A stretch of 64,000 bases of DNA from Rhizoctonia solani (taxonomy: Eukaryota > Basidiomycota > Agaricomycetes > Cantharellales > Ceratobasidiaceae): contig NC_057375.1 of the NCBI RefSeq assembly GCF_016906535.1, positions 2,294,001 through 2,358,000 of the forward strand. Reading direction: 5' to 3'. Under the pieces are notes generated by a model. It did no database searches, had not been told where the DNA came from, and saw only the letters and a list, made by a program, of their open reading frames with translations. The translations under genes were made by a program, and so were the position numbers. How positions within the stretch are numbered: the first letter of the stretch is position 1; each line of letters begins with the position of its first letter. Below, in pieces: positions 7,515-36,860 of this stretch.

Positions 7515-8894
7515 TCTATCCAAATATGGGCATGAATATTACTATATTTGGAAACTGGCAGCGCTACAAGACCTTTTATACTTTATTTCCTCATGGCGCT
7601 TGCATATATACACGTCTGATTATGCAAAGTAGTCATACTATTATTTCTATGATTTATAGCATATTTTGTATCATACATTTATATGTAGGAATGGTACTTG
7701 TAGACCATAGAACAAGTGCAAGTAAGCATGCAAGCGCCGGCGCTTAGTCATTGCAAATAAGCGCCAAAGGTTGGCGGGGCGCGCCAACGCCAATATCTCG
7801 GCGGGAAATAGGCATATTACTATGCGGACAAATACCAATAGGTCGGAGGCTCCGGCATCTCAGTTCCTAAAAAGGAATCGTCTGATTCTGAGCTAAATTG
7901 ATGGAGATACTAACCATTTAAGTTTCTAGCTTTTTCTATGAGATCCTACCTTGCCTCAAGGTTATTTTTAGCATTCACACTAATGTAATTTAGTCATGTA
8001 TGCTCTAGAACATTCTGTAAATAGCCTTGAGTCTATCCCACTAGGACTTATTGGGACTAATTGGTCTTTATGTATCAAATAGCTCAGACTGTACCTCTCA
8101 TGTAACTTCCTCTTTTGTACATCATGTATATAGTTATTTGTTCTCCCTCTGGGGTATATAAACCCCCTGAGGGAGACCCTTTGAATACAATCTTCTTTTC
8201 ATCCCATTCTTACCCCTTGTGTGAACTTGAAGATCTATTAGATCTTCTTTACTTAGTTTAGAGTGTCTTATTTTGCTTTCTTAGCCTCTTAAGCTCACTG
8301 AACTTAACCTGTAAGGTATCTTGGCGCATATAGCCTCTAGCAAGGTCCCAACAGATACTGGGTAGCTAGGAAAGGCTCTAGGGCAACCCTGAACCTCTTG
8401 AGTAAGTCAGTTGGGAGAGTTTAAGGCCTTGAGAGTGGCATATACACCTTAACTGAGTGCAATCTCAGTCAAATAAATTACTAGCAAATCCAGATAAATT
8501 GTAGTAGGTAACTAAGACTCAATACTAACTTTCATACTATAGGTATAAGCATAACCAACCACCTGTATCTGCAGTAATTGCTTGATTACTTGTTAAGTGT
8601 AGGGATCACCCTGATTACTAACCTAATTTACCCTTATATAGCTAGTCTATTGCCTTTTATATCCATAGATAACTGATCTATTAATCACTTTATTATATTT
8701 TGTACTTAATTACATAGTCCCTAAAACCTTACTCTATAACACTTTGTACACAGGGCCTTACAGCCTGGGTTCCACTAAGTCCCCAGTAGATACATTGCTC
8801 ACACCACCTTAAGTGGCCTGCCCACTGTACTTACATAGCTTGCCAATGCCTTATAGCATTGGTCATTGTAGATAGTTAGCTAGTTGTTGTAGGT
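7515..8894. other. LTR-like debris without a convincing gene
   Basis: AT-rich, no convincing ORF. A promoter-like segment (GGGTATATAAACC near 8150) is followed by a leader-like tract. GCGCCGGCGCTTA and ACCAACCACCTG words recur in a similar order at 32800-33500. I read both blocks as remnants of one old LTR family. The Rep element at 8900 inserted into this debris, which resumes at 21340. Confidence 0.35.
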
Positions 8895-8899
8895 AGTTC

Positions 8900-9366
8900 T
8901 GTCATGACCCACTCCATTCTGTCCATGAGTCCTGACCTTGTCAAGCCTCCAACACACTCAGGTTGCACACCAACATGACCGCAAGCACGCATATACTCGC
9001 ACATATGCACTCAGAACCTCCAGGTTCCCATATATAAGAGACTTATGGTCAACATGGCTGGACTTAGTGATATTCTCTAAGTCCAGGTCACATGACCTCC
9101 CCCCTCCAGTCCTTTATCAAATACTATACTAAACTACTACGGATTTGAGGTGGGGGGGGGATGACATAATCTCTTCTATAATAATATATTATTCAGACCT
9201 TGCCTGCGGGCTCCCTTAACATTGGCCTGCGGCTAGGGGGGCGGGGGGAGTGCAACGTCCCCCAGCAACTTATATTATTAATATATCACTGTGCATCATA
9301 TATACCATATACATCTTTGACAGTGGATATATATGGTAATAACCCCTCCAGATATGGGTTATGACA
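8900..9366 (+). repeat. 5' LTR of the Rep-carrying element
   Basis: 467 bp, TG..CA. It contains TATATAAG at 9031, the stem-loop at 9058-9086, a G tract near 9151-9160 whose length differs between copies, the palindrome AATAATATATTATT at 9180-9193, and a GC-rich repeat block near 9200-9250. Confidence 0.93.
9058..9086 (+). other. Origin-like stem-loop in the LTR
   Basis: A perfect 10-bp stem (CTGGACTTAG and its complement) encloses the 9-base loop TGATATTCT. Geminivirus-type origins have a stem of similar length and the loop TAATATTAC; six of nine loop positions agree, including the ATATT core before the nick site. GGTCA words flank the stem. It is conserved in the 3' LTR (21025-21053) and in the solo LTR (36226-36254, minus). 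The structure is seen; origin function is inferred from the Rep gene in the same element. Confidence 0.55.
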
Positions 9367-9380
9367 TTGAAATCAAGCTG
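9367..9380 (+). promoter_or_regulatory. Primer-binding site of the Rep element
   Basis: Two bases after the LTR, GAAATCAAGCTG (9369-9380) is the perfect complement of CAGCTTGATTTC at 10229-10240. The two-base gap and match length are as in both chromovirus families here. Its partner, however, lies downstream in the internal region instead of in the LTR. Confidence 0.6.
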
Positions 9381-9435
9381 CTTACCTATACCCAGTATAT
9401 ATACATATATATGTGTATATGTATTGCCTATAGGG

Positions 9436-9464
9436 GATGTAGGGATGACTAATGCCCCTACATC
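9436..9464 (+). other. Stem-loop in the 5' leader of the Rep element
   Basis: GATGTAGGG (9436-9444) and its complement CCCTACATC (9456-9464) enclose an 11-base loop containing ATGACTAAT. TGACTAA is the core of the hairpins at 9651-9831, so the loop and that array share a word. Function unknown. Confidence 0.45.
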
Positions 9465-9650
9465 ACTGATGCACAACATATTGTCCCAACAACACAACGT
9501 CAGATTACCATTTATGGTAACTCACCTTCCTAATTAGGAAAGAGACATAACTTGAAGAAGACTTTCAAGACAAATAGAGACTAAGCAACCTAGACTTACC
9601 AAAAATGGCAATCCCCTTTCCAAATTAGGAAAGAAGATGAAATGGATGGA

Positions 9651-9840
9651 TGACTAAGCTTAGTCAGCTGAACTCTGATGAGTCAGCAACCAGATCACAT
9701 GATCAACTCATTGATAACAAATCAAGTATGACTAAGCATGATGACAAATGCTTAGTCAGCAACCAGGTCACATGATCAACTCATGAATGACAAATCAACT
9801 ATGACCAAGCATAATGACAAATGCTTAGTCATCAAGTACT
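9651..9840 (+). repeat. Array of TGACTAAGC hairpins, about 73-bp period
   Basis: The array opens with the perfect palindrome TGACTAAGCTTAGTCA (9651-9666). Two hairpins follow: arms 9729-9739 and 9748-9758 (perfect, 11 bp, loop GATGACAA), and arms 9802-9812 and 9821-9831 (one mismatch, loop AATGACAA). Between them CCAGRTCACATGATC occurs at 9690-9704 and 9763-9777, nearly identical to CCAGGTCACATGACC beside the LTR stem-loop. Repeated words of this kind are typical of initiator-binding iterons; that role here is inference. Confidence 0.6.
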
Positions 9841-10194
9841 ACCTGCACTGCCACAATCACATGATGATGGCTGTGCTTGATCTCCGGGTAAAACCAGGCC
9901 GGATTGGGGAATAGGATTACCACATATGGAAATTGGATGAGTCATACTTATATTGTGGCTGTGCATGCCAAGAGTATGAGTCATACTTAAGCGGTGTTCC
10001 ATGTGATCATGTGCTAAAAATAGAACCAACTCCGCCAAGACCTCACCTCACTGGTGTATTTCTTGGCATTTGATTGGCTAATCAAGCACTGCCACATGGT
10101 TCTTTGACTCATACTGCTTCTTGAGGCTGTGCTACGGTTCCAAGAGGCTGTGCTCCTATTTGAAATATGTATATAGACCCAAGTGATGCCCAGG

Positions 10195-10240
10195 TATATA
10201 AAGGGGTGGAACAAGCTGCTTAAAAAGCCAGCTTGATTTC
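10195..10240 (+). promoter_or_regulatory. Internal TATA box and predicted RNA start for the gag-like ORF
   Basis: TATATAAA at 10195-10202 is followed 34 bases later by CAGCTTGATTTC (10229-10240), the complement of the primer-binding site. The same 34-base spacing is seen in the LTRs of both chromovirus families. The predicted RNA would start near 10229, about 330 bases before the first ATG of ORF1. Confidence 0.6.
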
Positions 10241-10559
10241 CCTTGTCTTACAACCTATAGGGACAAGCAGGTGTTGCTACACCTCAAAAAGAGCAACTGC
10301 ATGATTTATTTGAAATTCAACTATCAACAACTGTCAACAAAGGATCTCCACTGATCCTTCTTTCTGATTAGTGATAAGAAGTACTGTCAGAGTCTTCTCA
10401 TCACTAGGACCCTAGGTGTCCACTGCTTTACTTGCAAATAGCTAAAGACTTCCTTTGTGGGTTGCGCTATTTGGCTTCTTACTGACTAAGATAGGTATAT
10501 CTTGGAACTTGCAAGTAATAGAGACTATTATAGTGCTCTATTTGGCCTTTTGCAACAAT

Positions 10560-11795
10560 ATGGGAATTCATAAGATGCAACCTAGGCGTGTATTTGGGAC
10601 TTTGCCCCAATTGGATAACCCTGAACATGATCATGTCATGGAGCTGACATCTCCTATGCAAGGCATGGAACAGGGACATCAGGAAGGAGTAGGAATTACC
10701 CCTTCTAAACAGGCTGACCAACCAGATATGGAATCATTTCAACTTGCCACAGCTAGGATCCTAGACCCTAGGCATGAGAATCCAGGGAATAACACACCCT
10801 TGGAGGACCCTGCCACCAGGGAAAAGGAAACCCCTTTGGTAGATGAGGCAACCAGGAATAAGACAGTGAAGGATTTTATTGAAGACTTCTTTGCCAAATT
10901 CCCTGAGGAAACTCAACCACCAAAAACTGAGGCAAACAGGAAACGGATTACTAATGACCACCTTACAAGTACCCAAAAGGTCTATGGATTCTTAATGGAA
11001 CTAGTAATGGGAGTCAAAAGGTTGGAGAAACATATTGACAACCATCTAAAGATGGAACAGGAAATGCTGGATCAAGGTATTTCTCAGGAAGTGATTGATC
11101 AATTGGATAAAATACTTCCCTTGTCTTCCCTCTGGGAGGCTGAGAACTACAGTGAATCCAATTCCAATAAATCAGGGTCTACTGAAATCCAATGTGAGGT
11201 GTGTGGGAGAACAAACCACTCTACTGAAGAACATAGGAAATCACGTGACCCTAGGGCAAAGGGCAATAAAGGGTCTGACAAGCGGAAAGATAAGGGTCCT
11301 GGCAACCCAGGGTATAAAGGAAGGCATCCCATGCCTGGGAAGTCATCTCAAACCACCACTGGCACCACTACTTTCTTATCCATCCCCATTACCAAGACAT
11401 CATGCCTGCCATCAGAACAGAGACCAGGATCTCCAAGGCCACTGGAGATGCCACCTCTTACCACCTTGACAGATCCAGTGAGCACAGGACTGAGTTCCCT
11501 TGGTCCCAGGACAACCTGGATCAATGGGCACCCCCAGATCCATCCATGGGCTGGGACATGGGGAATGATCAACCCCCTATCACCAACATCTATGACTGGC
11601 ATAAGGTCATCACAAGATGTGACTCCTTCCAATGATCCAAGGCTTATGCCAAACTACTTGATCCCTCAGCAACCCTTGATTACATACCAATGGGTCAACA
11701 ATGGAAATGCTACTGGATTGGAAGAACCCTACGCTGTCCAACCAGGGGATACCTCCGCTGGGTTGGCAGTGAGCCACCAAAACAACCCAAACTAA
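10560..11795 (+). CDS. Gag-like ORF1 of the Rep element
   Basis: 411 residues from the ATG at 10560; the frame is open further upstream without another ATG. I do not recognise the family by sequence. The middle (about residues 125-210) is charged and predicted helical (TVKDFIEDFFAKFPEE, FLMELVMGVKRLEKHID). A zinc-knuckle-like motif follows, CEVCGRTNHSTEEH (CX2CX4HX4H, the last Cys replaced by His), then a basic stretch (KGNKGSDKRKDKGPG) and a proline/threonine-rich tail. Knuckle plus basic tail resembles a retroelement nucleocapsid, so a gag-like RNA- or DNA-binding role is likely but unproven. Its stop TAA (11793-11795) overlaps the ATG of ORF2. The nested chromovirus starts eight bases later. 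Confidence 0.7.
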   Translation: MGIHKMQPRRVFGTLPQLDNPEHDHVMELTSPMQGMEQGHQEGVGITPSKQADQPDMESFQLATARILDPRHENPGNNTPLEDPATREKETPLVDEATRNKTVKDFIEDFFAKFPEETQPPKTEANRKRITNDHLTSTQKVYGFLMELVMGVKRLEKHIDNHLKMEQEMLDQGISQEVIDQLDKILPLSSLWEAENYSESNSNKSGSTEIQCEVCGRTNHSTEEHRKSRDPRAKGNKGSDKRKDKGPGNPGYKGRHPMPGKSSQTTTGTTTFLSIPITKTSCLPSEQRPGSPRPLEMPPLTTLTDPVSTGLSSLGPRTTWINGHPQIHPWAGTWGMINPLSPTSMTGIRSSQDVTPSNDPRLMPNYLIPQQPLITYQWVNNGNATGLEEPYAVQPGDTSAGLAVSHQNNPN

Positions 11796-11802
11796 TGCAA
11801 AG

Positions 11803-12375
11803 TGTCCTAGACGTCTGTAAGGACGTTGAGGGCGCGGGCGCTTGTGGCTGTGTGGATGTACAATGGGTACTGCTTAAGGCGGCAAAGTCTACCCTACAAC
11901 GTCTAACTACTAAACTACGGCGACCAAGGCCTTATGGGCGTTGGCAGGCTACGTATGTACAGCGGAGGCAACGCTTAAGGCGTTGTAGTGTTACTTAGTG
12001 ATCTGGCTGTAAGGCCTTGTACAAGTGGAGATGCGACAAGAGGTAATCAACCTGGGTGTTACCATGGTTGGTTGGCCTCCTTATATATTCTACAGACAAG
12101 CTATTTACAAAAACATTATATGTAATACCGTATCAAATAAGAACCCCGCTCCGCAGTTGGCCTTACTCATGCATACGTGTCACTGACGTGTCATACTGAT
12201 GTCATCAGGTGGAGGTGGCTACGTGTGCTGAGGTAAGCGCGGATGGGGACGTGGCTTGGCGCTTAGCGTATGATATAAGCGCCAATGTCACGTGATTGAA
12301 AATGTTCTCCAATTGCCTTTGTTTAAATTCGAGAAATTGGGAATAAATTCCCTGGTATCGATTGTGTCTACGACA
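11803..12375 (-). repeat. 3' LTR of the nested chromovirus
   Basis: 573 bp, TGTCCTAGAC to GTCTACGACA on the plus strand. The adjoining polypurine tract, read as CCCCCCTTTAAGGG on the plus strand, lies just inside it. It holds TAAGCGCC (12276-12283) and CACGTGAT (12289-12296). Confidence 0.95.
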
Positions 12376-12384
12376 CTGCCCCCC

Positions 12385-15300
12385 TTTAAGGGCCTTGGCA
12401 GCGCCAAGGGCCTTCTTTTTCATCTCTTTTTCATATTTTTCTAAAATTTTTTCAGCGTTTTTTAAGTTTTCTCAAGGTTCCCATGTATTCTCTTTGGATC
12501 CGTAGCCCTTCCATTTGACTCGGAAGAACCATTTTCCATCTCTTTCCTCGGCATTGGTGATTCCTTCTACTTCATATTCTTCCTCCCCCTCCACGGTGAC
12601 AGGTGGTGGGTGGTTTTCAAAGGCGCGCTTCTTGTCTCTCTTGACCTTAGATAGGAGCCCTATATAGAAGACATTGTGGATTCGCATGGTTGGAGGGAGT
12701 TCTAGACGGTAGGCTCGGTCGGAGATTTTCTCGATAACCTTAAATGGTCCTAGGCGTTGTTCCGTAAGTTTGGGACTCAAGGTTTTAAGGTTAACGTTCT
12801 TGGCGTCCAGCCAAGCTTCTTCTCCAATCTTGAATTCTGTTGGGCTTCCATCTTTCCCAGCCGTCATGCGTTGCTTAGATTGCCGGAGTGCCGATTCCAC
12901 TTCCTTCCATTGTGCCTCCATTGTCTGGGCAAGGTCATCTGCTTCTGGGACGTCCGTTGGTACATTTGATGGGGTTAAGGTGGGTTCCCATCCGTACAAG
13001 GCTTTGAAGGGGGTTTTTCCCGTGCTGCTATGTACGGCATTGTTGTACGCAAATTCTGCCATTGGGAGCCATTTAGTCCAGTCCCGTTGGTTAATCCCTG
13101 AGTAAGCCCTGAGGAAATGTTTGATGGAGGGGTTCACTCTTTCCGTTTGACCGTTGCTCTGAGGATGATAAGCCGAAGAGAAGTGAGGGTCTATTCCTAG
13201 GCGTTTGTATAGCGCTTTTAGGAATTTATTGTTGAAGACTCTTCCCCTATCCAAGATTGTTTTTTCAGGCATCCCGTGCTGTTTCCACACGTGTTCTAGG
13301 AATAGTTCCGCCAGTTCAGGTGCTTTGAGCTTTTTGGAGCATTTGACAAAAATCCCGTACTTGGTGAAGCTGTCAATGATAACCAGGATTGAGTTGCAAG
13401 TTCCGTCCTTGGGCAGGTCTACTATCATGTTGTAGGAGACATGTTGCCATGGTCTGTTAGGCAGCTCAAGGGGTTCAGGTGGTATTGACGCGTATTTGGG
13501 CTTCCTTATCCATTGACATGTTTCACAGGAGTCTACATGCCAGTATGTGTCAGCACAAATCCCAGGCCAATAGTAATTCCTTGATACCAACTCCAGGGTT
13601 CGTTGTCTTCCTGGATGTCCTGCCAAGGCGCTGTCGTGGAAAATGTGGAGTAGGTCTGTCCTTAGTGTTCCAACGTCAGGGACTACGATTTGTCCTTGGT
13701 AGAAGAGTAACCCGGCCTCCATCTTGTAATCTTTGAATGCGCGTTTGATGGAGGGGGGTGCTTTGGACTGGTTCTGTAGGAATTGGAGGATTTCCTCCAA
13801 GGATTTGTCTTGATCCAGGGACGCTTCAATTTGGCGCTGTAACTCCTTTTCCAGTGTGACCAGGGCAACGTTTGCAAACACAAGGTCCAGGAGCATGGTT
13901 TGGGCCGCAGGGGGGATATTGGCGTGATCCAATCGGCGTGAAAGGGCGTCCGGCTTTCCTGATTGCTTTCCGGGGCAATAGATGATCTGGAAATTGTACC
14001 CGGCTAGCAAGAGATGCCATTGTGCATGGCGACGGTTGAACGTCCTAGACTCCTTCCAATATTCTAAGTTCCTGTGGTTGGTAAAGACAGTGATGGGATG
14101 TAAGGTGCCTTCCAGGAAAATGCGCCAATACTCAAATGAGCGTATGATAGCAAGTAGTTCTTTGTCATGCGTATTGTAGTTCTGTTCCGCTCCCTTGAAT
14201 GATTCCGACAGAAATCCTAGTGGGTGTAGGCAACCGTCTTCCTGGCGTTGGCTTAATATGGAACCTAATGCTGCGCCGGAGGCGTCCGTTTCTAGGAAGT
14301 AGGGTCTTGTGGGGTTGGCGTGGCAAAGTACTGGCGCGTTGGTGATAGCATCCTTGAGGCTTTGGAATGCTTCTTGTTCCCTTGCTTCCCATTTCCAGGG
14401 TGTATCCTTCTTGACCAAGTTATGTAGTGGTCTGGCTAGGTGACTGAAGTTGGCAACAAATCTTCGGAGGAAGTTGGCAAACCCAAGGAAGGACTGGACC
14501 TCTTTGACTTTGGTAGGCGTGGGCCATTCTTGGACAGCCTGGATTTTGAGCTTATCCAGGCTAAAACCCTTATCAGATACAATGATTCCCAGATATTCTA
14601 CAGAGGTGACGTGGAATGTGCATTTGGACGCTTTACAGAACAATTGGTTATCCATTAGGCGCCGTAAGACCTCATGAACGTGCTTGGTGTGTGATGCGTC
14701 ATCCTTGGAGTAGATCAGGATGTCATCAAGGTATATGATGACGCATACATCTAGCAGATCCTTAAACAATTTGTTCATGAAGTGTTGGAAGGCGGCGGGA
14801 GCGTTGGTAAGGCCAAAGGTCATGACCAGGGATTCATAGAGGCTGTATTTGGTTTGGAATGCAGTTTTCCACTCATCACCTTCTTTAACTCGCACGTTGT
14901 TGTAACCCCATTGTAGATCTAGTTTGGTGAAGACCTTGGCGCCGCGGAGTTGGGCCATAAGGTCATCCGGACGGGGAAGCGGGTAAACGTTTTTCTTGGT
15001 GCAATTGTTAAGGCAACGGTAGTCAACAACCAAGCGACAGGATCCATCCTTTTTGGGGACAAATATTACAGGGGAACTGATGGAAGATTTGCTGGGGCGG
15101 ATCTTCCCAGCTTTCAACTCATCCCTGAGCCAGTCTTTGAGTGTGACGGACTCGGCGTCTGTCATGCTGTAAAGGGGGGAGTTAAGGGGACCTTCTTCCG
15201 TGAGTTCTATCCCAATGTTGTAATGCCGGTGAGGAGGAAGCTTGTTGAATTCTTCTTCTCCAAATACTTTGGCATATTGATGGTACTTGGGGGGTACTCC

Positions 15301-15804
15301 TTCAAGAGGGTTCTTATCTGCTTCTTCTTCCTTGGCAATGGCCACGCGTTCAGGGGTTGTACGAGGGAAAGAGAGGGTGCGTGTATTCCAATCAATCTCC
15401 GGATTGTGGGCATCCAACCATTTCAGTCCCAAGATAGCGGCGTGAGAACCTGTATTACATATAAGGAAGGTCTCTGTCATTTTCTTGCCATTGAGGGAGA
15501 AGGTCAGGATTGTCTTTTTCCAGATTTTGCCAGCCTGGGGGCTTGACCCATCGAGCATAGTGACGGTACAGGGAGTAGGGAGATCAATGAGTGGAAGGCG
15601 GAGTAGTTCCGCGGTACGGGGGTGAAGGAAGGATGATGTGGCGCCTGAATCAATCAGGACTTCTAGTGTTTCCGCTTGTTTCTCTGGCTTTATTGGAATA
15701 GTGAAAAGCGGTGTGATTCTATTGGTACTAGATATATTACAAAATTCCAAACAGATGCCAGAGTCCTTGGGGTCCTTGCGCGCGGCAGCAGGTACCCTTA
15801 CTCT
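12385..15804 (-). pseudogene. pol: Pol of the nested chromovirus (nearly intact, one stop near the C-terminus)
   Basis: The pol frame opens by -1 shift from gag at AGGAAAA (15804-15810). Protease DSGAT, RT with intact YLDD, RNase H (ETDAS), integrase zinc finger (FHDSALAGH) and DDE core, and chromodomain (WFFRVKWKGYGSKENTWEP) appear in order. A TGA at 12472-12474 directly after the chromodomain WEP interrupts the frame. The following codons still look coding (ENLKNAEKILEKYEKEMKKK), so it is probably CGA to TGA. Past that point the frame has no stop before the LTR and runs into it to about 12205. All catalytic domains precede the stop, so activity may survive. The true C-terminal end is uncertain. 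Confidence 0.85.
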
Positions 15805-17153
15805 TTTCCTGATTGGTACTCAGAGTCTTTGCCAATTTTGGCGGTTTCCTTGGCCTTCCCCTTATCCTCTTTTGGGGTAGCCTTCCATCCGGTCCAACAC
15901 TCGGCAAACTTGTGCCTGGGTTTGCCGCATTTGACACAGAGACCTTCTGCGCGGCGGCGGTTACATTCTTCCTCCGAGACGTAATTGGGATCGGAGGAAA
16001 GGGGGCCGGTTTTGGTGGCCTGTTGGCCGGTACTTGCCCCCCAATTGGGGGTGGAAGAAGTTTTACCAGACTTATTACCCTGTTGCGGGTGGCTGGCTTG
16101 CTCCTTGCAGAGGGCGTTGTCAATGATGAGGGCAGCATCTTGCAGCTCCCTCAGGGTACGGGGTTGCCTCTCCCTTGTGGCAATTTGTTTTCAAACTTCC
16201 CAGTGAAGTCCTTGCGCAAACTGACCGCGGAGTGTGGCATTGTTCCAATCAAGTTCCATTTGCAGCGTGCAGAACTTGGTAATATATTTGGCACATGTGC
16301 CGTTCTGAGTGAGGGAAGTAATTTTCCGCTCTGCTGCCCTGGTTGCGTCTGGATTGCCAAAGGCAGCCAGGAATTCGATTTTGAACTCATCCACGGTTTG
16401 AATGAGTGCGCGGTGGGACCCTAGTTGGTCCAGGTGGGGATGGGCCCAGGCCCCAGCTGCTTCCGTCATGTTCATCAACAGGAAGCTCAGGACCTCCATG
16501 TCCGAGGGGAACTGCCTCTGGTTGAGGCAAACCCAAGCCAACATACGGGTTAGCCATTGTTTGGCCTCCAAGCCAATTTTGCCTTTGAAGGCGTCTGGGT
16601 GGTCCACTTTTACTGTGGAGGGGGCTGGAGGCTGCGCTGGGGTAATGACAGGCGCTGGTGGAGGTCCCTGGGGAGCTGGAGCCGGTCCCAAAGGGAAGGA
16701 GGAGGAGGGATATGGGTTGAATAAGGAGAGGGGGTTGCGCCTTGGGGCCCCTGTGGAGATGATGGGGGCTGGGGCCCCAAGGAAGGGTTGAGCCTTGCCA
16801 ATAGGCTTGGCTTTGGGCGCGGCCCTGGGAGTTTCCTTGACCGCGGGGGGTTTTTGTTCTTCTGGGGTGTGAGGACCCCGGGCGTGTTGGAGCTGGGCAA
16901 GCCCATCCTTGACAGTATTGACCGTTTGCAAGATGTTCTTGACATTGGTTTGAACCTCTTGGCTAACTTCAGCTTGTTCCAAGAGGGTCCGCTCAATGCG
17001 GTTGACTTGGGATTGGAGTCCCCAGAGGAGGCGGATGACCCGCTCAAGGGATACTTCGCCGAGCTCAGGGGAGGTTGGCGGAAAAAGGGGTTCCAGCTGT
17101 CCCTGATCGACAGGGGAGCGGGCTCGAGAGGGTGGCCGGGAACGGGTTGCCAT
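15798..17153 (-). pseudogene. gag: Gag of the nested chromovirus with one in-frame stop
   Basis: Frame of 452 codons from the ATG at 17153-17151 to TAA at 15800-15798. A TGA at 16193-16191 follows LHWEV and replaces what is likely an arginine codon. The N-terminal half has a helical segment, then a Pro/Ala-rich linker, then the retrotransposon gag domain (AKQWLTRMLAWVCLNQRQF onward). After the stop the frame continues to a CCHC knuckle, CVKCGKPRHKFAEC. Without readthrough the product lacks the knuckle and the frameshift site, so Pol would not be made. Confidence 0.85.
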
Positions 17154-17626
17154 GGAGTGTGTGGGGTAAGACCGGCCAGCGTGGGTGGATGCCCAGGACA
17201 AAGAACGAGGGGGAGTGCGGGAGGTAATGGTGGAGAGTGTGGTGGGGACTAGTAGATGCCTATATCAGGACTTATGAGCGCTTTATTACTTGATTGCTAA
17301 GACCTTGCGTCAAACAACCTAGCATTGAACAGTAGGAATTACTAATCACAGCCGTGGGCGGGCGTGATGTAGAACCAAATTTCTGCAAGCGGGTGTATCT
17401 GCTGTCTAGGTCCGCTGGTAAATGGTGCGGCGACCGGGGGTATGCAGGCAATAGGGAATTCCTGCCTTATAGCAATTTGGTACTAGGAGGGGACAACGCT
17501 GGTTTGATTATTAACAGCAAAAGGCGATCCCGATCTCCGGTATTTCCCTTGTGCTAGTACAGGGTTCCTTCTTGTTGTTGAGCTAAGTGTGGTGGGTGCT
17601 GGTGGGCACGGTTTGCAACCAACTTA

Positions 17627-17639
17627 AGGTCGATTACCT
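17627..17639 (-). promoter_or_regulatory. Primer-binding site of the nested chromovirus, self-priming type
   Basis: Two bases inside the 5' LTR the minus strand reads AGGTAATCGACCT. It is the perfect complement of AGGTCGATTACCT in the LTR (17880-17892), which begins 34 bases after the TATATAA start at 17926. Confidence 0.75.
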
Positions 17640-17641
17640 AG

Positions 17642-18214
17642 TGTCCTAGACGTCTGTAAGGACGTTGAGGGCGCGGGCGCTTGTGGCTGTGTGGATGTAC
17701 AATGGGTACTGCTTAAGGCGGCAAAGTCTACCCTACGACGTCTAACTACTAAACTACAGCGACCAAGGCCTTATGGGCGTTGGCGGGCTACGTATGTACA
17801 GCGGAGGCAACGCTTAAGGTGTTGTAGTGTTACTTAGTGATCTGGCTGTAAGGCCTTGTACAAGTGGAGATGCAACAAGAGGTAATCGACCTGGGTGTTA
17901 CCATGGCCGGTTGGCCTCCTTATATATTCTACAGACAAGCTATTTACAAAAACATTATATGTAATACCGTATCAAATAAGAACCCCGCTCCGCAGTTGGC
18001 CTTACTCATGCATACGTGTCACTGACGTGTCATACTGATGTCATCAGGTGGAGGTGGCTACGTGTGCTGAGGTAAGCGCGGATGGGGACGTGGCTTGGCG
18101 CTTAGCGTATGATATAAGCGCCAATGTCACGTGATTGAAAATGTTCTCTGATTGCCTTTGTTTAAATTCGAGAAATTGGGAATAAATTCCCTGGTATTGA
18201 TTGTGTCTACGACA
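17642..18214 (-). repeat. 5' LTR of the nested chromovirus
   Basis: 573 bp. Minus-strand TATATAA at 17926-17920 and presumed RNA start at 17892. The U3 carries the CACGTGAT and TAAGCGCC pair with the same 5-base gap as the other family. Confidence 0.95.
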
Positions 18215-18887
18215 CAAAGTACCAAATTCTTTGTGTGTAGAGGTAATGTGGGTGCCTCTGTGGAGGATGTAGTAAGGGCCCCAGTGCTAAAGCACACAAG
18301 GAAGTTGGCAGAGTGGCATCTAGACATTGAGGAAATTGATCCTGAATGGTGGATACCAATCTCAACAGTAAGGGAATGGCTGGCTGCAGAAATTGAAAAC
18401 TGGAAAAACAAACTGCCATCAGGCTTAGGTGGCTATGTGGACAACCTCACTCCTGAGGATGTCTATTACATGATCCTAGAACGCAAAATGAGCATAGAGG
18501 ATCTACATGACTGGCTCAAACAATGGGCCATGCAAGCAGCTCAGAATGATCTGAGCAGAAGTATATCTAACTTAGCAATCCATGAACTAAGTGATGAAGG
18601 AGGACATGAGTCTGACCTTGAAAGTAACAAGGCCATGAACAAATGGAATCCCTTGGATTATGCTGATGGAATGTGATGAAATATGTAACATTCCATTAGT
18701 TACCTTACATTCTTCTCTTCTTCCTTTTCTTCCAATGTTTGATTCTTCTTAGTAACCATGTGTCTTATCTGATCTTCCAAGAATCATTTTATCTCTAAAT
18801 GCCAAATGGAGGAAGAGAAAGGATGCTTTTATTAAGACAGGAACCAGAACAGACAAGATAAGGAAAGACAAGACAAAGAGGAACTAT

Positions 18888-20471
18888 CTAATACAGCTTA
18901 TCACCAATATACACAAAGGTACAATTGGTGTCTATCCAATCCTTGCCATCAACTGTGGCATAACTACAATCAGCAAATACAAAAGGCTTAGAATTGGAAC
19001 ATATAACAGTAGAACGCCCCCATTGGCAATGGCGCTCTGATCTGTAACTAGTGCGGAAGTTGAAGTCTTCCTGCACCCACATCTTCAAAGGAACCTTGGA
19101 CCAATCCATATCATCCAGCACTGCATACTGAACCATAGGATGGTCACTAAACTCATCAGAGTTGAGGTTCTGCCTGAACCTAATATGGTGCCCCCAAGAA
19201 CAAGCCAGGGCTGACTTCCCTGTTTCTGAGGGCCCCCACAAAACAAGGATCTTACCACGATCAGATTCAGGGTCACGTTCCAATATATTGGAAGTAACCC
19301 ACTCCTGAACACCAGGTGGCAAGTTGACTGTAGCCCTGGTAACAACTTGTCAACATTCTCTTCTATGATGAAAAAGAAGAGGACTTACTTCTTAAGGGCC
19401 TTGGGTTCACATACACCCTGAGGAAGGGCACCCTTGTCCCTGTAGAAGTAACCAGTGAAAGCCTTGAGGTTGTTATACCCCATGGCCATATCACAAGGTT
19501 GGCGCTCCTTTAAGCAACCAAAAAATCCCTCAGCATCCTCTGCCTCCATGGCATAGGCAAAATCTTCATTACGCTGTAATAAGAGAACCATCAGCTGAGA
19601 ACCTCTTTCCATAACCAGGGACTTACATTGGTCTTAGCCTTCAACCCTGCAGGGCACTGGCCTAATAAGAACTCCTCTTACAAGAAGACGCTCATGAGGG
19701 CGCACTCCCTTATACTTCCATAGGTTCAGGGCCTCTGATGAGATGAGGGTCCTGGCCCAAACAATAACATGGCAATGCCAATCAGGTTGCCATTCACCTT
19801 CCCTCAGGTCATGGGACTCAGTGACTCCCATGGCATACTCCAAAAGGGAATTTGCCCCACTCCTCAGAGTAAGAAGATGATCTACAAGACTTGAATAATC
19901 TTCAGTAAAAGTAAAAACATCCTGGGTATAACTACTTACTCTTTTATAACCTCATGGCAAGAGGTTTCCCTTGTCTCCTCACTCTTGACATAACAAGCAT
20001 AAGTGAGAAGATAACACTTCCCCTTACAATGGAAGCGCCTTCCTTCTTGGGGAAGAACCCCAATGTCCTCCTGCCCTTCAGGGGCTGCAGGAACAATAGA
20101 TTCCCTTGACTCCAATGGAGCCATGGATGGGACAATGGAGCTTCCTCCATTTTCTAAGTCTTCCCTGTTGCTGGGCACTGCTAACCAACGCCTGGACAAG
20201 GGGGGAAGCACGCAGGATATCTGTGACTTTACAGTTATCTGTTAGTAAAAGGATTTTGCTAGCAAACAAGACCACTTACTCCTTCTTCTTGGGAGTCCAG
20301 ATCCAACCTTCTTTTGAGAGTCCTGGGAGTGAGCTGTGACAGAGGCAGCTCTTGACTCTGCCACACAGTAGATGCAATCTGGGAAACATAGGGGGTGGCA
20401 TCCAACAGCCCTGAAGGCTGTGAATCCAAGACTGTGGAGGGAGTGGCGCTGGCAGTTGGGCATTGAGACAT
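18888..20471 (-). pseudogene. rep: Geminivirus-type replication initiator (Rep), five exons, one frameshift
   Basis: Exons by splice sites and phase: 20280-20471, 19940-20220, 19627-19889, 19389-19573 and 18888-19335; introns of 59, 50, 53 and 53 bp. The frame is about 455 codons. An N-terminal extension of about 130 residues precedes motif I (YLLTYACY, about residue 134). Motif II is the metal-binding HUH pair in WHCHVIVWA (about 195), and the motif III tyrosine is probably in DFAYAMEAED (about 252), where the usual lysine three residues on is not seen. The superfamily 3 helicase follows: Walker A GPSETGKSA (about 341), Walker B AVLDDMDW (about 379), motif C VICSNSKP (about 417). CRESS-DNA viruses use this protein to nick the origin and unwind DNA. 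One extra base near 19657-19664 in exon 3 breaks the frame unless a 25-base intron is removed, which is unlikely. It is convergent with ORF2. Confidence 0.85.
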
Positions 20472-20505
20472 GTTGATGACTTATCCCACCTCCCACTGCC
20501 CTCTT

Positions 20506-20512
20506 CTTTATA
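20506..20512 (-). promoter_or_regulatory. TATA box for the Rep gene
   Basis: Minus-strand TATAAAG starts 41 bases before the Rep ATG (20471), implying a very short 5' UTR. Its position supports the chosen start. Confidence 0.4.
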
Positions 20513-20852
20513 CCATGGGGGCCAAGAGACTGAATCAGAGGGAAATGACTTACTATACCAATCCTTTCTGAACAATAAAATGGCACCATACGGTAACCAA
20601 GCAACCATGAAATATGTTGCTAACCAGGAACTTCCAGAAGACTTGAGAAGTTGCTTTACAAAGACTGTAGTGTGGGAACTTTCCCACAGGAAGAAAACAA
20701 CATTCCAATAAGGATCACATGACCAAGAACAAGTCAGGTGACCTCAGAACAACTCATTGCACAATTGTACTTAGGAGAACTTGACACCTAATAAGATATC
20801 TATCCAGATATATTTTCTAATGGCACAAGTTCATGTCCCCTAAACTATGTGC

Positions 20853-20863
20853 AAAAGGGGGGG
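20853..20863 (+). other. Polypurine tract of the Rep element
   Basis: AAAAGGGGGGG followed by CAA and then the LTR start TGTCATGACC at 20867. It matches the tract before the chromovirus LTRs and sets the element's orientation as plus. Confidence 0.8.
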
Positions 20864-20866
20864 CAA

Positions 20867-21334
20867 TGTCATGACCCACTCCATTCTGTCCATGAGTCCT
20901 GACCTTGTCAAGCCTCCAACACACTCATGTCGCACACCAACATGACCGCAAGCACGCATATACTCGCACATATGCACTCAGAACCTCCAGGTTCCCACAT
21001 ATAAGAGACTTATGGTCGACATGGCTGGACTTAGTGATATTCTCTAAGTCCAGGTCACATGACCTCCCCCCCTCCAGTCCTTTATCAAATACTATACTAA
21101 ACTACTACGGATTTGAGGTGGGGGGGGGATGACATAATCTCTTCTATAATAATATATTATTCAGACCTTGCCCGCGGGCTCCCTTAACATTGGCCCGCGG
21201 CTAGGGGGGCGGGGGGAGTGCAACGTCCCCCAGCAACTTATATTATTAATATATCACTGTGCATCATATATACTATATACATCTTTGACAGTGGATATAT
21301 ATGGTAATAACCCCTCCAGATATGGGTTATGACA
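20867..21334 (+). repeat. 3' LTR of the Rep-carrying element
   Basis: 468 bp, nearly identical to the left copy; differences are mostly C/T or G/A, plus tract length in the G run. The stem-loop is at 21025-21053. In this copy a GCCCGCGGGC palindrome is intact where the left copy has GCCTGCGGGC. Confidence 0.93.
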
Positions 21335-35818: not shown

Positions 35819-36860
35819 TGTTATACTCCACTGTAAGGTGGGGTACACGCTGGTGGAACAGGTGCTTGTGGCCATACTACTACAGGTATTGCTTATCTAA
35901 CTATCTAATTAGGCTGTGCTACTAACTACTAGTCCACTTAAGGTGGCTTGTCATAACCCATATCTGGAGGGGTTATTACCATATATATCCACTGTCAAAG
36001 ATATATATAGTATATATGATGCACAGTGATATATTAATAATATAAGTTGCTGGGGGACGTTGCACTCCCCCCGCCCCCCTAGCTGCGGGCCAATGTTAAT
36101 GCCCGCAGGCAAGGTCTGAATAATATATTATTATAGAAGAGATTATGTCATCCCCCCCCCCCTCAAATCCATAGTAGTTTAGTATAGTATTTGATAAAGG
36201 ACTGGAGGGGGGGAGGTCATGTGACCTGGACTTAGAGAATATCACTAAGTCCAGCCATGTTGACCATAAGTCTCTTATATGTGGGAACTTGGAGGTTCTG
36301 AGTGTATATGTGCTAGTATATGCGTGCTTGCGGTCATGTTGGTGTGTAACATGAGTGTGTTGGAGGCTTGACAAGGTCAGGGCTCATGGAAATAATGGAA
36401 AGGGTTGTGACATGGCTACTAACTATCTAATTCTAGAGCAAAGGGGCCAGAGGCCTGGAGGTGTGGTAGGTAAGGTAGAGGGGGTAAGTGGCTTCTGAGG
36501 ACTGGGGGCTGGTTACTTAGTTGGCTGAGTACCTTCTCTAATGAATAAGAGACAAAGTAAAATCAACTTGGGGTTTCCAAGTGATTTTCCTGCTGTATAT
36601 ATAGACATAGAGGCGCTATTTACATGGTCTGTGCGCATGAGAAAAGAAGTACTTATATGAAATAAGAAGAGTGCTGCGGGCTGTGCAGAAGTGTGGATTT
36701 CTCCTAAGCACCCTTGGCACAGCATCTTGGTGCAGCATCTTGGCATAATAAGCGCCAAGATCACGTGATTGAAAAAGTAAAGATAAAGGGTTTGTAAAAA
36801 ATACTAAAAATATCAGAAAAAAGAGGGGAATCCAATGGTATATGTTAGGGGATTGTAACA
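35819..36860 (-). repeat. Family-1 LTR (minus) interrupted by a Rep-family solo LTR
   Basis: The two parts, 35819-35948 and 36418-36860, add up to 573 bp and run TGTTATACTCC to GGGGATTGTAACA. The interruption is the LTR at 35949-36412 with its target duplication. Confidence 0.85.
35949..36412 (-). repeat. Solo LTR of the Rep-carrying element family
   Basis: 464 bp, reverse complement of the LTRs at 8900 and 20867, flanked by TGGCT (35944-35948 and 36413-36417). The stem-loop survives at 36226-36254. It proves that this LTR family moves as a normal 5-bp-duplicating element. Confidence 0.92.

Follow-up and report, generated by a model that had tools for sequence, protein, structure and literature searches.

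The DNA analyzed here is a 64,000-nt window of the Rhizoctonia solani contig NC_057375.1, from a genome of 40.7 Mb in 16 contigs, and all positions below are positions in this window. It contains a long terminal repeat (LTR) element that carries on its antisense strand a spliced gene, probably encoding a geminivirus-like replication initiator (Rep). The features of the locus are collected in Table 1. The two LTRs differ by seven substitutions and one gap column in 468, have TG..CA ends and are bordered on both sides by AGTTC. The element thus shows the hallmarks of LTR retrotransposons, i.e. direct LTRs with TG..CA ends, a target-site duplication (TSD) of 4-6 bp, a primer-binding site and a polypurine tract. 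No reverse transcriptase (RT) or integrase of its own was found in this outer element, and it is therefore not an autonomous LTR retrotransposon. Without a nested insertion it is ~6 kb long and ambisense: the open reading frames ORF1 and ORF2 lie in sense orientation, and the Rep gene runs antisense toward them, its end 211 bp from that of ORF2. The LTRs with their TG..CA ends, the 5-bp duplication, the polypurine tract, ORF1, the TAATG-coupled ORF2 and the antisense spliced gene had all been named in an earlier note on this DNA, and each of them was found again; taken as a whole, the observations of that note were partly confirmed and its interpretation was partly supported.

Table 1. Features of the Rep-bearing LTR element and of the element nested in it (window positions)
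Start	End	Strand	Feature	Remark
8895	8899	.	Left target-site duplication	AGTTC
8900	9366	+	5' LTR	TGTCATGACCC...GGGTTATGACA
9367	10476	+	5' leader, common to the gag-pol sister	By identity to L044
9369	9380	+	Primer-binding site GAAATCAAGCTG	Two bases past the LTR; complementary to 10229-10240
10195	10202	+	TATA-like TATATAAA	~30 bp before the presumed primer; putative promoter
10229	10240	+	CAGCTTGATTTC, presumed self-primer source	Base 10236 covaries with 9373
10560	11795	+	ORF1	411 aa; signs of purifying selection
11786	11792	+	CCCAAAC heptamer	Immediately precedes the stop of ORF1; candidate for -1 frameshifting
11793	11797	+	TAATG	Stop/start overlap of ORF1 and ORF2
11795	11802	+	ORF2, first bases	Before the nested insertion
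11803	18214	-	Nested Ty3/gypsy element, different family	LTRs 11803-12375 and 17642-18214; TSD CAAAG
12472	15750		pol ORF of the nested element	
16191	17201		gag of the nested element	
18220	18676	+	ORF2, remainder	Constraint visible against L088
18888	19335	-	Rep exon 5, helicase part	GPSETGKS, VLDD, ICSN
19389	19573	-	Rep exon 4, central region	Intact copies match Gemini_AL1_M
19627	19889	-	Rep exon 3 with HUH (HCHV)	Motif III (YLKK) region deleted here
19940	20220	-	Rep exon 2 with motif I	LLTY
20280	20471	-	Rep exon 1	Start codon at 20471
20506	20512	-	TATAAAG	~35 bp upstream of the Rep start; putative promoter
20853	20863	+	Polypurine tract	AAAAGGGGGGG
20867	21334	+	3' LTR	
21335	21339	.	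Right target-site duplication	AGTTC

The nested element interrupts ORF2 just past its start, right after the ORF1/ORF2 junction. It has 573-bp LTRs of its own with 11 substitutions between them, and it codes for gag as well as RT, RNase H, integrase and a chromodomain. None of the seven other two-LTR copies that were read (L009-L015) has this element at the corresponding site. The possibility that the pol gene of the interval forms part of the outer element was thus rejected, as this pol belongs to the nested element and is absent from the site in L009-L015. The earlier claim that no reverse transcriptase is present holds for the outer element and fails for the interval as a whole, where the nested element supplies one.

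A genome-wide search with the 467-bp LTR gave at least 41 matches, with 40 of 278 candidates scored. Eight two-LTR copies were read, namely the window copy and L009-L015, the latter taken from the LTR pairs listed; one LTR of L011 is truncated. In all seven other copies, the leader, ORF1, ORF2 and the Rep region follow one another in the same order and orientation as in the window, and the Rep gene therefore belongs to a mobile family. Its presence at the same position in 8/8 copies, at eight places in the genome, supports the earlier claim that it moved as part of the unit and rules out a one-off insertion. Exact TSDs flank five of these copies (window, L010, L013, L014 and L015), two more have one mismatch (L009 and L011), and none was found at L012. 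Two wider LTR pairs that were not read whole (C1, 119-133 kb, and C10, 369-381 kb) both contain Rep and ORF1 matches. Recent copies are represented by L009, L010 and L013, with two LTR substitutions each.

Altogether the genome has 24 matches to the HUH exon of Rep (19 copies when grouped by coordinates), 23 to the helicase exon, 23 to ORF2 and 38 to ORF1. By coordinates, 21 of the 23 helicase-exon matches lie no more than 1.7 kb from an ORF2 match, while the remaining two are ~650-bp truncated pieces amid other repeats on C8 and C16; no complete Rep outside the element was thus found among these 23 matches. The fragments on C8 and C16 were likewise discarded as a progenitor Rep. A further LTR of the family, 95% identical, occurs on the minus strand of the window at 35949-36412 (G000:C6:2329949-2330412) and has no partner among the LTR pairs listed.

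The Rep gene of L009 is divided into five exons by four introns of 50-59 bp, each starting with GTAAGT, and has 488 codons for 487 residues. This model was moved by alignment to 15 further copies, so that 16 of the 19 copies were modelled. In these, 62 of 64 introns read GT..AG, and the splice model is supported by two alleles that end intron 2 differently at the same codon (TTCAAG in allele A, TTTTTAG in allele B). A full open frame without internal stop was found in seven modelled copies (L009-L013, L015 and L026). Eight have a broken frame, including L014 and the window copy, both of which have lost DNA from exon 3, and in L025 the frame is open with the last exon missing from the stretch available. 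Exon 3 of the window copy measures 263 bp, compared to 358 bp in L009; 95 bp around the presumed catalytic tyrosine are gone and the frame is lost. The spliced gene for an HUH endonuclease and superfamily 3 (SF3) helicase that had been noted on the other strand is thus borne out as a five-exon gene with its motifs at 18888-20471, though the broken state of this particular copy had been overlooked.

The motifs LLTY, HCHV, YLKK, GPSETGKS, VLDD and ICSN occur at Rep positions 135, 196, 244, 373, 411 and 450. We take them to be motif I, HUH, YxxK, Walker A, Walker B and motif C, an order that matches Reps of the circular Rep-encoding single-stranded DNA (CRESS) type (HUH-SF3), with YxxK lacking in the window copy. 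The ordered set of six appeared in none of 200,000 shuffles, a weak test given that this protein was already in view when the pattern was drawn up. For three full Rep models the best Pfam match was Gemini_AL1_M (E 0.012, 0.0056 and 0.051), which spans 5-105 or 6-105 of its 107 positions, begins after the HUH region and runs into Walker A. From these sequence features the antisense gene is probably a geminivirus-like Rep. The label "geminivirus-type" that it had been given is plausible by the motif order and the best Pfam match, and unproven with E values of 0.0056-0.051, below the cut-off. Scans of viral contigs found no relatives of this Rep (two further scans gave 27 and 13 loci, on contigs of at least 4.6 kb), and a PHROGs search gave nothing useful. 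Searches of the unspliced genome with Gemini_AL1 and Gemini_AL1_M had no match either, which is uninformative, as none was obtained in control genomes.

Elements with gag and pol share the LTR chassis of the Rep family. The complete sister, L044 on C9, has LTRs identical at 460/460 positions and the TSD CTTCT. Its gag contains Retrotrans_gag and Ty3_capsid domains and its pol a protease, RT, RNase H, integrase and chromodomain, in the order that, together with gag, characterizes Ty3/gypsy chromoviruses. The identity of L044 to the window is 95.6% over 8955-10476 and 90% over the 3' tail (20830-21334), and the LTR is shared except for its first 55 bp. Between these shared ends, the only matches of L044 to the window are pieces of pol that are 65-66% identical to the pol of the nested element. 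Homology to the sister stops at the borders of the Rep-bearing payload. ORF1 was dismissed as a relative of the sister's gag, with a BLASTP match of E 0.059 over a short low-complexity stretch. L044 and L045 each have gag and pol frames, L046 has a gag frame, and the start of the L044 gag has ten matches genome-wide. Rep-less elements on the same LTRs, which the earlier note had named as a sign of a one-off Rep insertion, therefore do exist; however, it is the whole internal region that differs in them, and the Rep is not a single insertion. Because the LTRs, 5' leader and 3' tail are shared, the Rep element was most likely moved in trans by the enzymes of its gag-pol sister.

Two side observations concern this chassis. 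The left flank of the window element (8412-8743) and that of a gag-pol sister located on a different contig (L045:1-332) match at 98% identity, so both elements adjoin the same repeat. The leader also has more remote relatives of 67-77% identity at G000:C4:648589-649413, C5:1885144-1885542 and C11:1126611-1127029, which perhaps represent further families on the same chassis.

The primer-binding site reported earlier is present but is not of the tRNA type, which was excluded by the absence of TGG after the LTR. Instead, GAAATCAAGCTG is complementary to CAGCTTGATTTC in the element's own leader, ~860 bp downstream of the primer site and outside the LTR. Some copies have A for T in GAAATCAAGCTG and T for A in CAGCTTGATTTC. 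A survey of 43 primer sites and 32 partner sites yielded 26 pairs within 1.5 kb, of which 14 are A-T, nine T-A, three T-T and none A-A; 23 of 26 are thus complementary (Fisher p 7e-5, uncorrected for relatedness). The bases likewise match in three pairs that lie farther apart, and 14 primer sites lack a partner at distances up to 8 kb. In an alignment of 13 leaders, the 9373/10236 pair reaches an r2 of 0.71, unique among the 104 pairs of sites separated by 500 columns or more, while 2.4% of all 666 leader site pairs reach this value. As the bases of the primer site and leader covary, both in the Rep family and in its gag-pol sisters, the alignments suggest a self-derived primer in an unusual self-priming layout.

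ORF1 has a C-x2-C-x4-H-x4-H pattern, presumably zinc-knuckle-like, and in L009 as well as in the window its stop is preceded by CCCAAAC, which we take to be a heptamer of the -1 frameshift type. In L009 the ORF2 frame is open for 133 codons upstream of TAATG. ORF2 might be translated either by reinitiation or by frameshifting. Outside the overlap, the ratio of nonsynonymous to synonymous rates (dN/dS) of ORF1 was 0.19-0.27 in four comparisons; L009 has a stop there. For ORF2 the ratio was 0.08 against L088 (15 changes), whereas the comparisons with L089 (1.75, eight changes), L013 (0.16, five changes) and L012 (0.25, four changes) are too thin for a conclusion. No transposase domain was found in the payload proteins scanned.

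Two diverged Rep alleles circulate in the family. Of the changes between allele A (L009) and allele B (L013), 90.5 are synonymous and 44.5 nonsynonymous (dS 0.354, dN 0.040, ratio 0.113), and a comparison with L015 gave a ratio equal to that of L013. Identity between the alleles is 54% in intron 2 and 58% in intron 3, and 92% and 77% in introns 1 and 4. Purifying selection has apparently acted on the Rep, as seen between alleles. The Rep unit and the flank on its 3' side make up the divergent block. Elsewhere in the element, 150-bp windows show 94-100% identity, and L012 changes from one Rep allele to the other within the gene. Since the divergence is confined to this block and L012 switches inside it, the pattern points to recombination between elements that would swap the Rep as a cassette.

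The reading that we prefer, with a probability of about 0.7, is that of a family of non-autonomous LTR retrotransposons built on the cis sequences of a Ty3/gypsy chromovirus, with the internal region replaced by a Rep-bearing payload. The LTRs, primer site, leader and polypurine tract are those of a chromovirus in the same genome, and a payload of ~3.9 kb, with ORF1 and ORF2 in sense and the convergent five-exon geminivirus-like Rep gene, would stand in place of the internal region. Sense RNA made from the LTR would be reverse transcribed from a primer that is a fragment of the element's own RNA and would then be integrated, both by the proteins of the gag-pol sister. The Rep would be expressed from integrated DNA off the antisense strand, with its own promoter and splicing, and its four introns may escape loss owing to their antisense orientation in the genomic RNA. 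As a first choice, and the least certain part of this proposal, the Rep could be a nuclear nickase/helicase that aids the element; it might act on circular extrachromosomal DNA of the element or affect DNA synthesis of the host, two options to which we give about equal weight. It is conceivable, though we put it forward tentatively, that the family is a chimera of two replication systems, spreading as RNA by borrowed gypsy enzymes and using its own rolling-circle initiator on circular DNA by-products or the host replication programme, with diverged alleles exchanged as cassettes.

Several results weigh against this proposal. No Pfam Rep family scored above cut-off with the three full Rep models, for which Gemini_AL1_M reached 14.1-17.2 bits compared to a cut-off of 24, and a PDB sequence search with the Rep had no match. 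AlphaFold models of two Rep exons were useless (predicted local distance difference test scores of 39.5 and 35.0, from 10-12 closely related sequences). The conserved nonanucleotide stem-loop origin was not found in L009 and L013, scanned for stems of at least 6 bp; one perfect 8-bp hairpin is present upstream of Rep in both. Three of the 26 primer-site pairs, L011 included, are mismatched (T-T). Within allele A no constraint is visible, with dN/dS near 1 on very few changes (two synonymous and nine nonsynonymous in L010, three and nine in L011), and the constraint visible only between alleles may in part be older than the capture of the gene. The lack of constraint within the allele fits copies that decay after insertion, as expected.

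A possible origin of the payload, compatible with the preferred reading and held with similar reserve to the chimera, is a captured circular single-stranded DNA (ssDNA) replicon, either virus or plasmid, whose large intergenic region was opened by the LTR chassis, so that retrotransposition and rolling-circle replication may coexist. Its ambisense convergent layout with the 211-bp spacing, the signs of constraint on Rep, ORF1 and (against L088) ORF2, and the coincidence of the payload borders with the ends of homology to the sister would be in keeping with such a source. On the other hand, neither ORF1 nor the scanned part of ORF2 has a Pfam family above cut-off and no capsid was recognized in them, the nonanucleotide stem-loop was missing in L009 and L013, and four introns are unlike the compact Reps of viruses.

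It is rather unlikely that the Rep is passive cargo, i.e. a host-resident gene caught by chance and carried unused. The nine modelled copies without a full frame (the eight broken ones, that of the window among them, and L025) and the within-allele dN/dS of ~1 are what such a history would leave, but it conflicts with the ratio of 0.11 between alleles, the absence of a complete Rep outside the element among the 23 helicase-exon matches and the presence of Rep in all eight two-LTR copies read. It is more doubtful still that the antisense gene codes for a different P-loop protein, for instance an ATPase of the Rad17 or AAA kind. Taken alone, the helicase exon best matches Rad17 (E 0.0044) and AAA_25 (E 0.0057), both below cut-off; in contrast, Gemini_AL1_M ranks first for all three full models, and the six motifs stand in order. 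Movement by the Rep alone in a rolling-circle or Helitron-like manner, with incidental LTRs, is very improbable despite the complete HUH-helicase gene in seven of 16 modelled copies, given the 5-bp TSDs, the TG..CA ends, the polypurine tract, the chassis shared with an RT/integrase element and the retained antisense introns, as expected of a sense RNA intermediate.

Retrotransposons and rolling-circle ssDNA replicons are normally separate, and the Rep family would represent a stable union of both. It would give Rep genes a virus-independent way of spreading in genomes, and it makes testable whether an HUH-helicase can aid a retroelement; the intact sister, the covarying primer site and both alleles of Rep provide handles. 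What may be new here is that a non-autonomous LTR retrotransposon regularly includes a probable CRESS-type Rep among its genes; the literature listings obtained showed no Rep gene in any LTR element, a weak test of novelty.

Among known systems, the gag-pol sister resembles chromoviruses of the Tf1/sushi type in its gag-pol with chromodomain, and may do so in the suggested self-derived primer. In Tf1 the primer is formed by the first 11 nt of the transcript, whereas the complement of the Rep-element primer site lies ~860 bp downstream, in the leader and not in the LTR. LARD-type (large retrotransposon derivative) or BARE-2 elements share LTRs and cis sequences with an autonomous partner, have no pol and are mobilized in trans; unlike these, the internal region of the Rep element codes for three proteins, one of them Rep-like. 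Some plant LTR elements have an antisense extra ORF between the internal region and the 3' LTR, and the Rep element similarly has an antisense gene before its 3' LTR; the antisense ORFs of the plant elements are not known as Reps.

The geminivirus-like Rep resemblance, seen here in motifs and a sub-threshold profile, is shared with SsHADV-1-like mycoviruses and the endogenous Reps of fungi, which are free viruses or scattered integrated Reps (Liu et al. 2011, PMC3198968). The same source describes a geminivirus-like transposon of Tuber melanosporum with 37-bp terminal inverted repeats, transposase ORFs, an interrupted Rep and no obvious TSD. Both that transposon and the Rep element are multicopy mobile elements of a fungal genome with a geminivirus-like Rep. 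In contrast to the Tuber transposon as described there, the Rep element has LTRs, 5-bp TSDs, a gypsy-type chassis and an intron-bearing antisense Rep that is intact in several copies.

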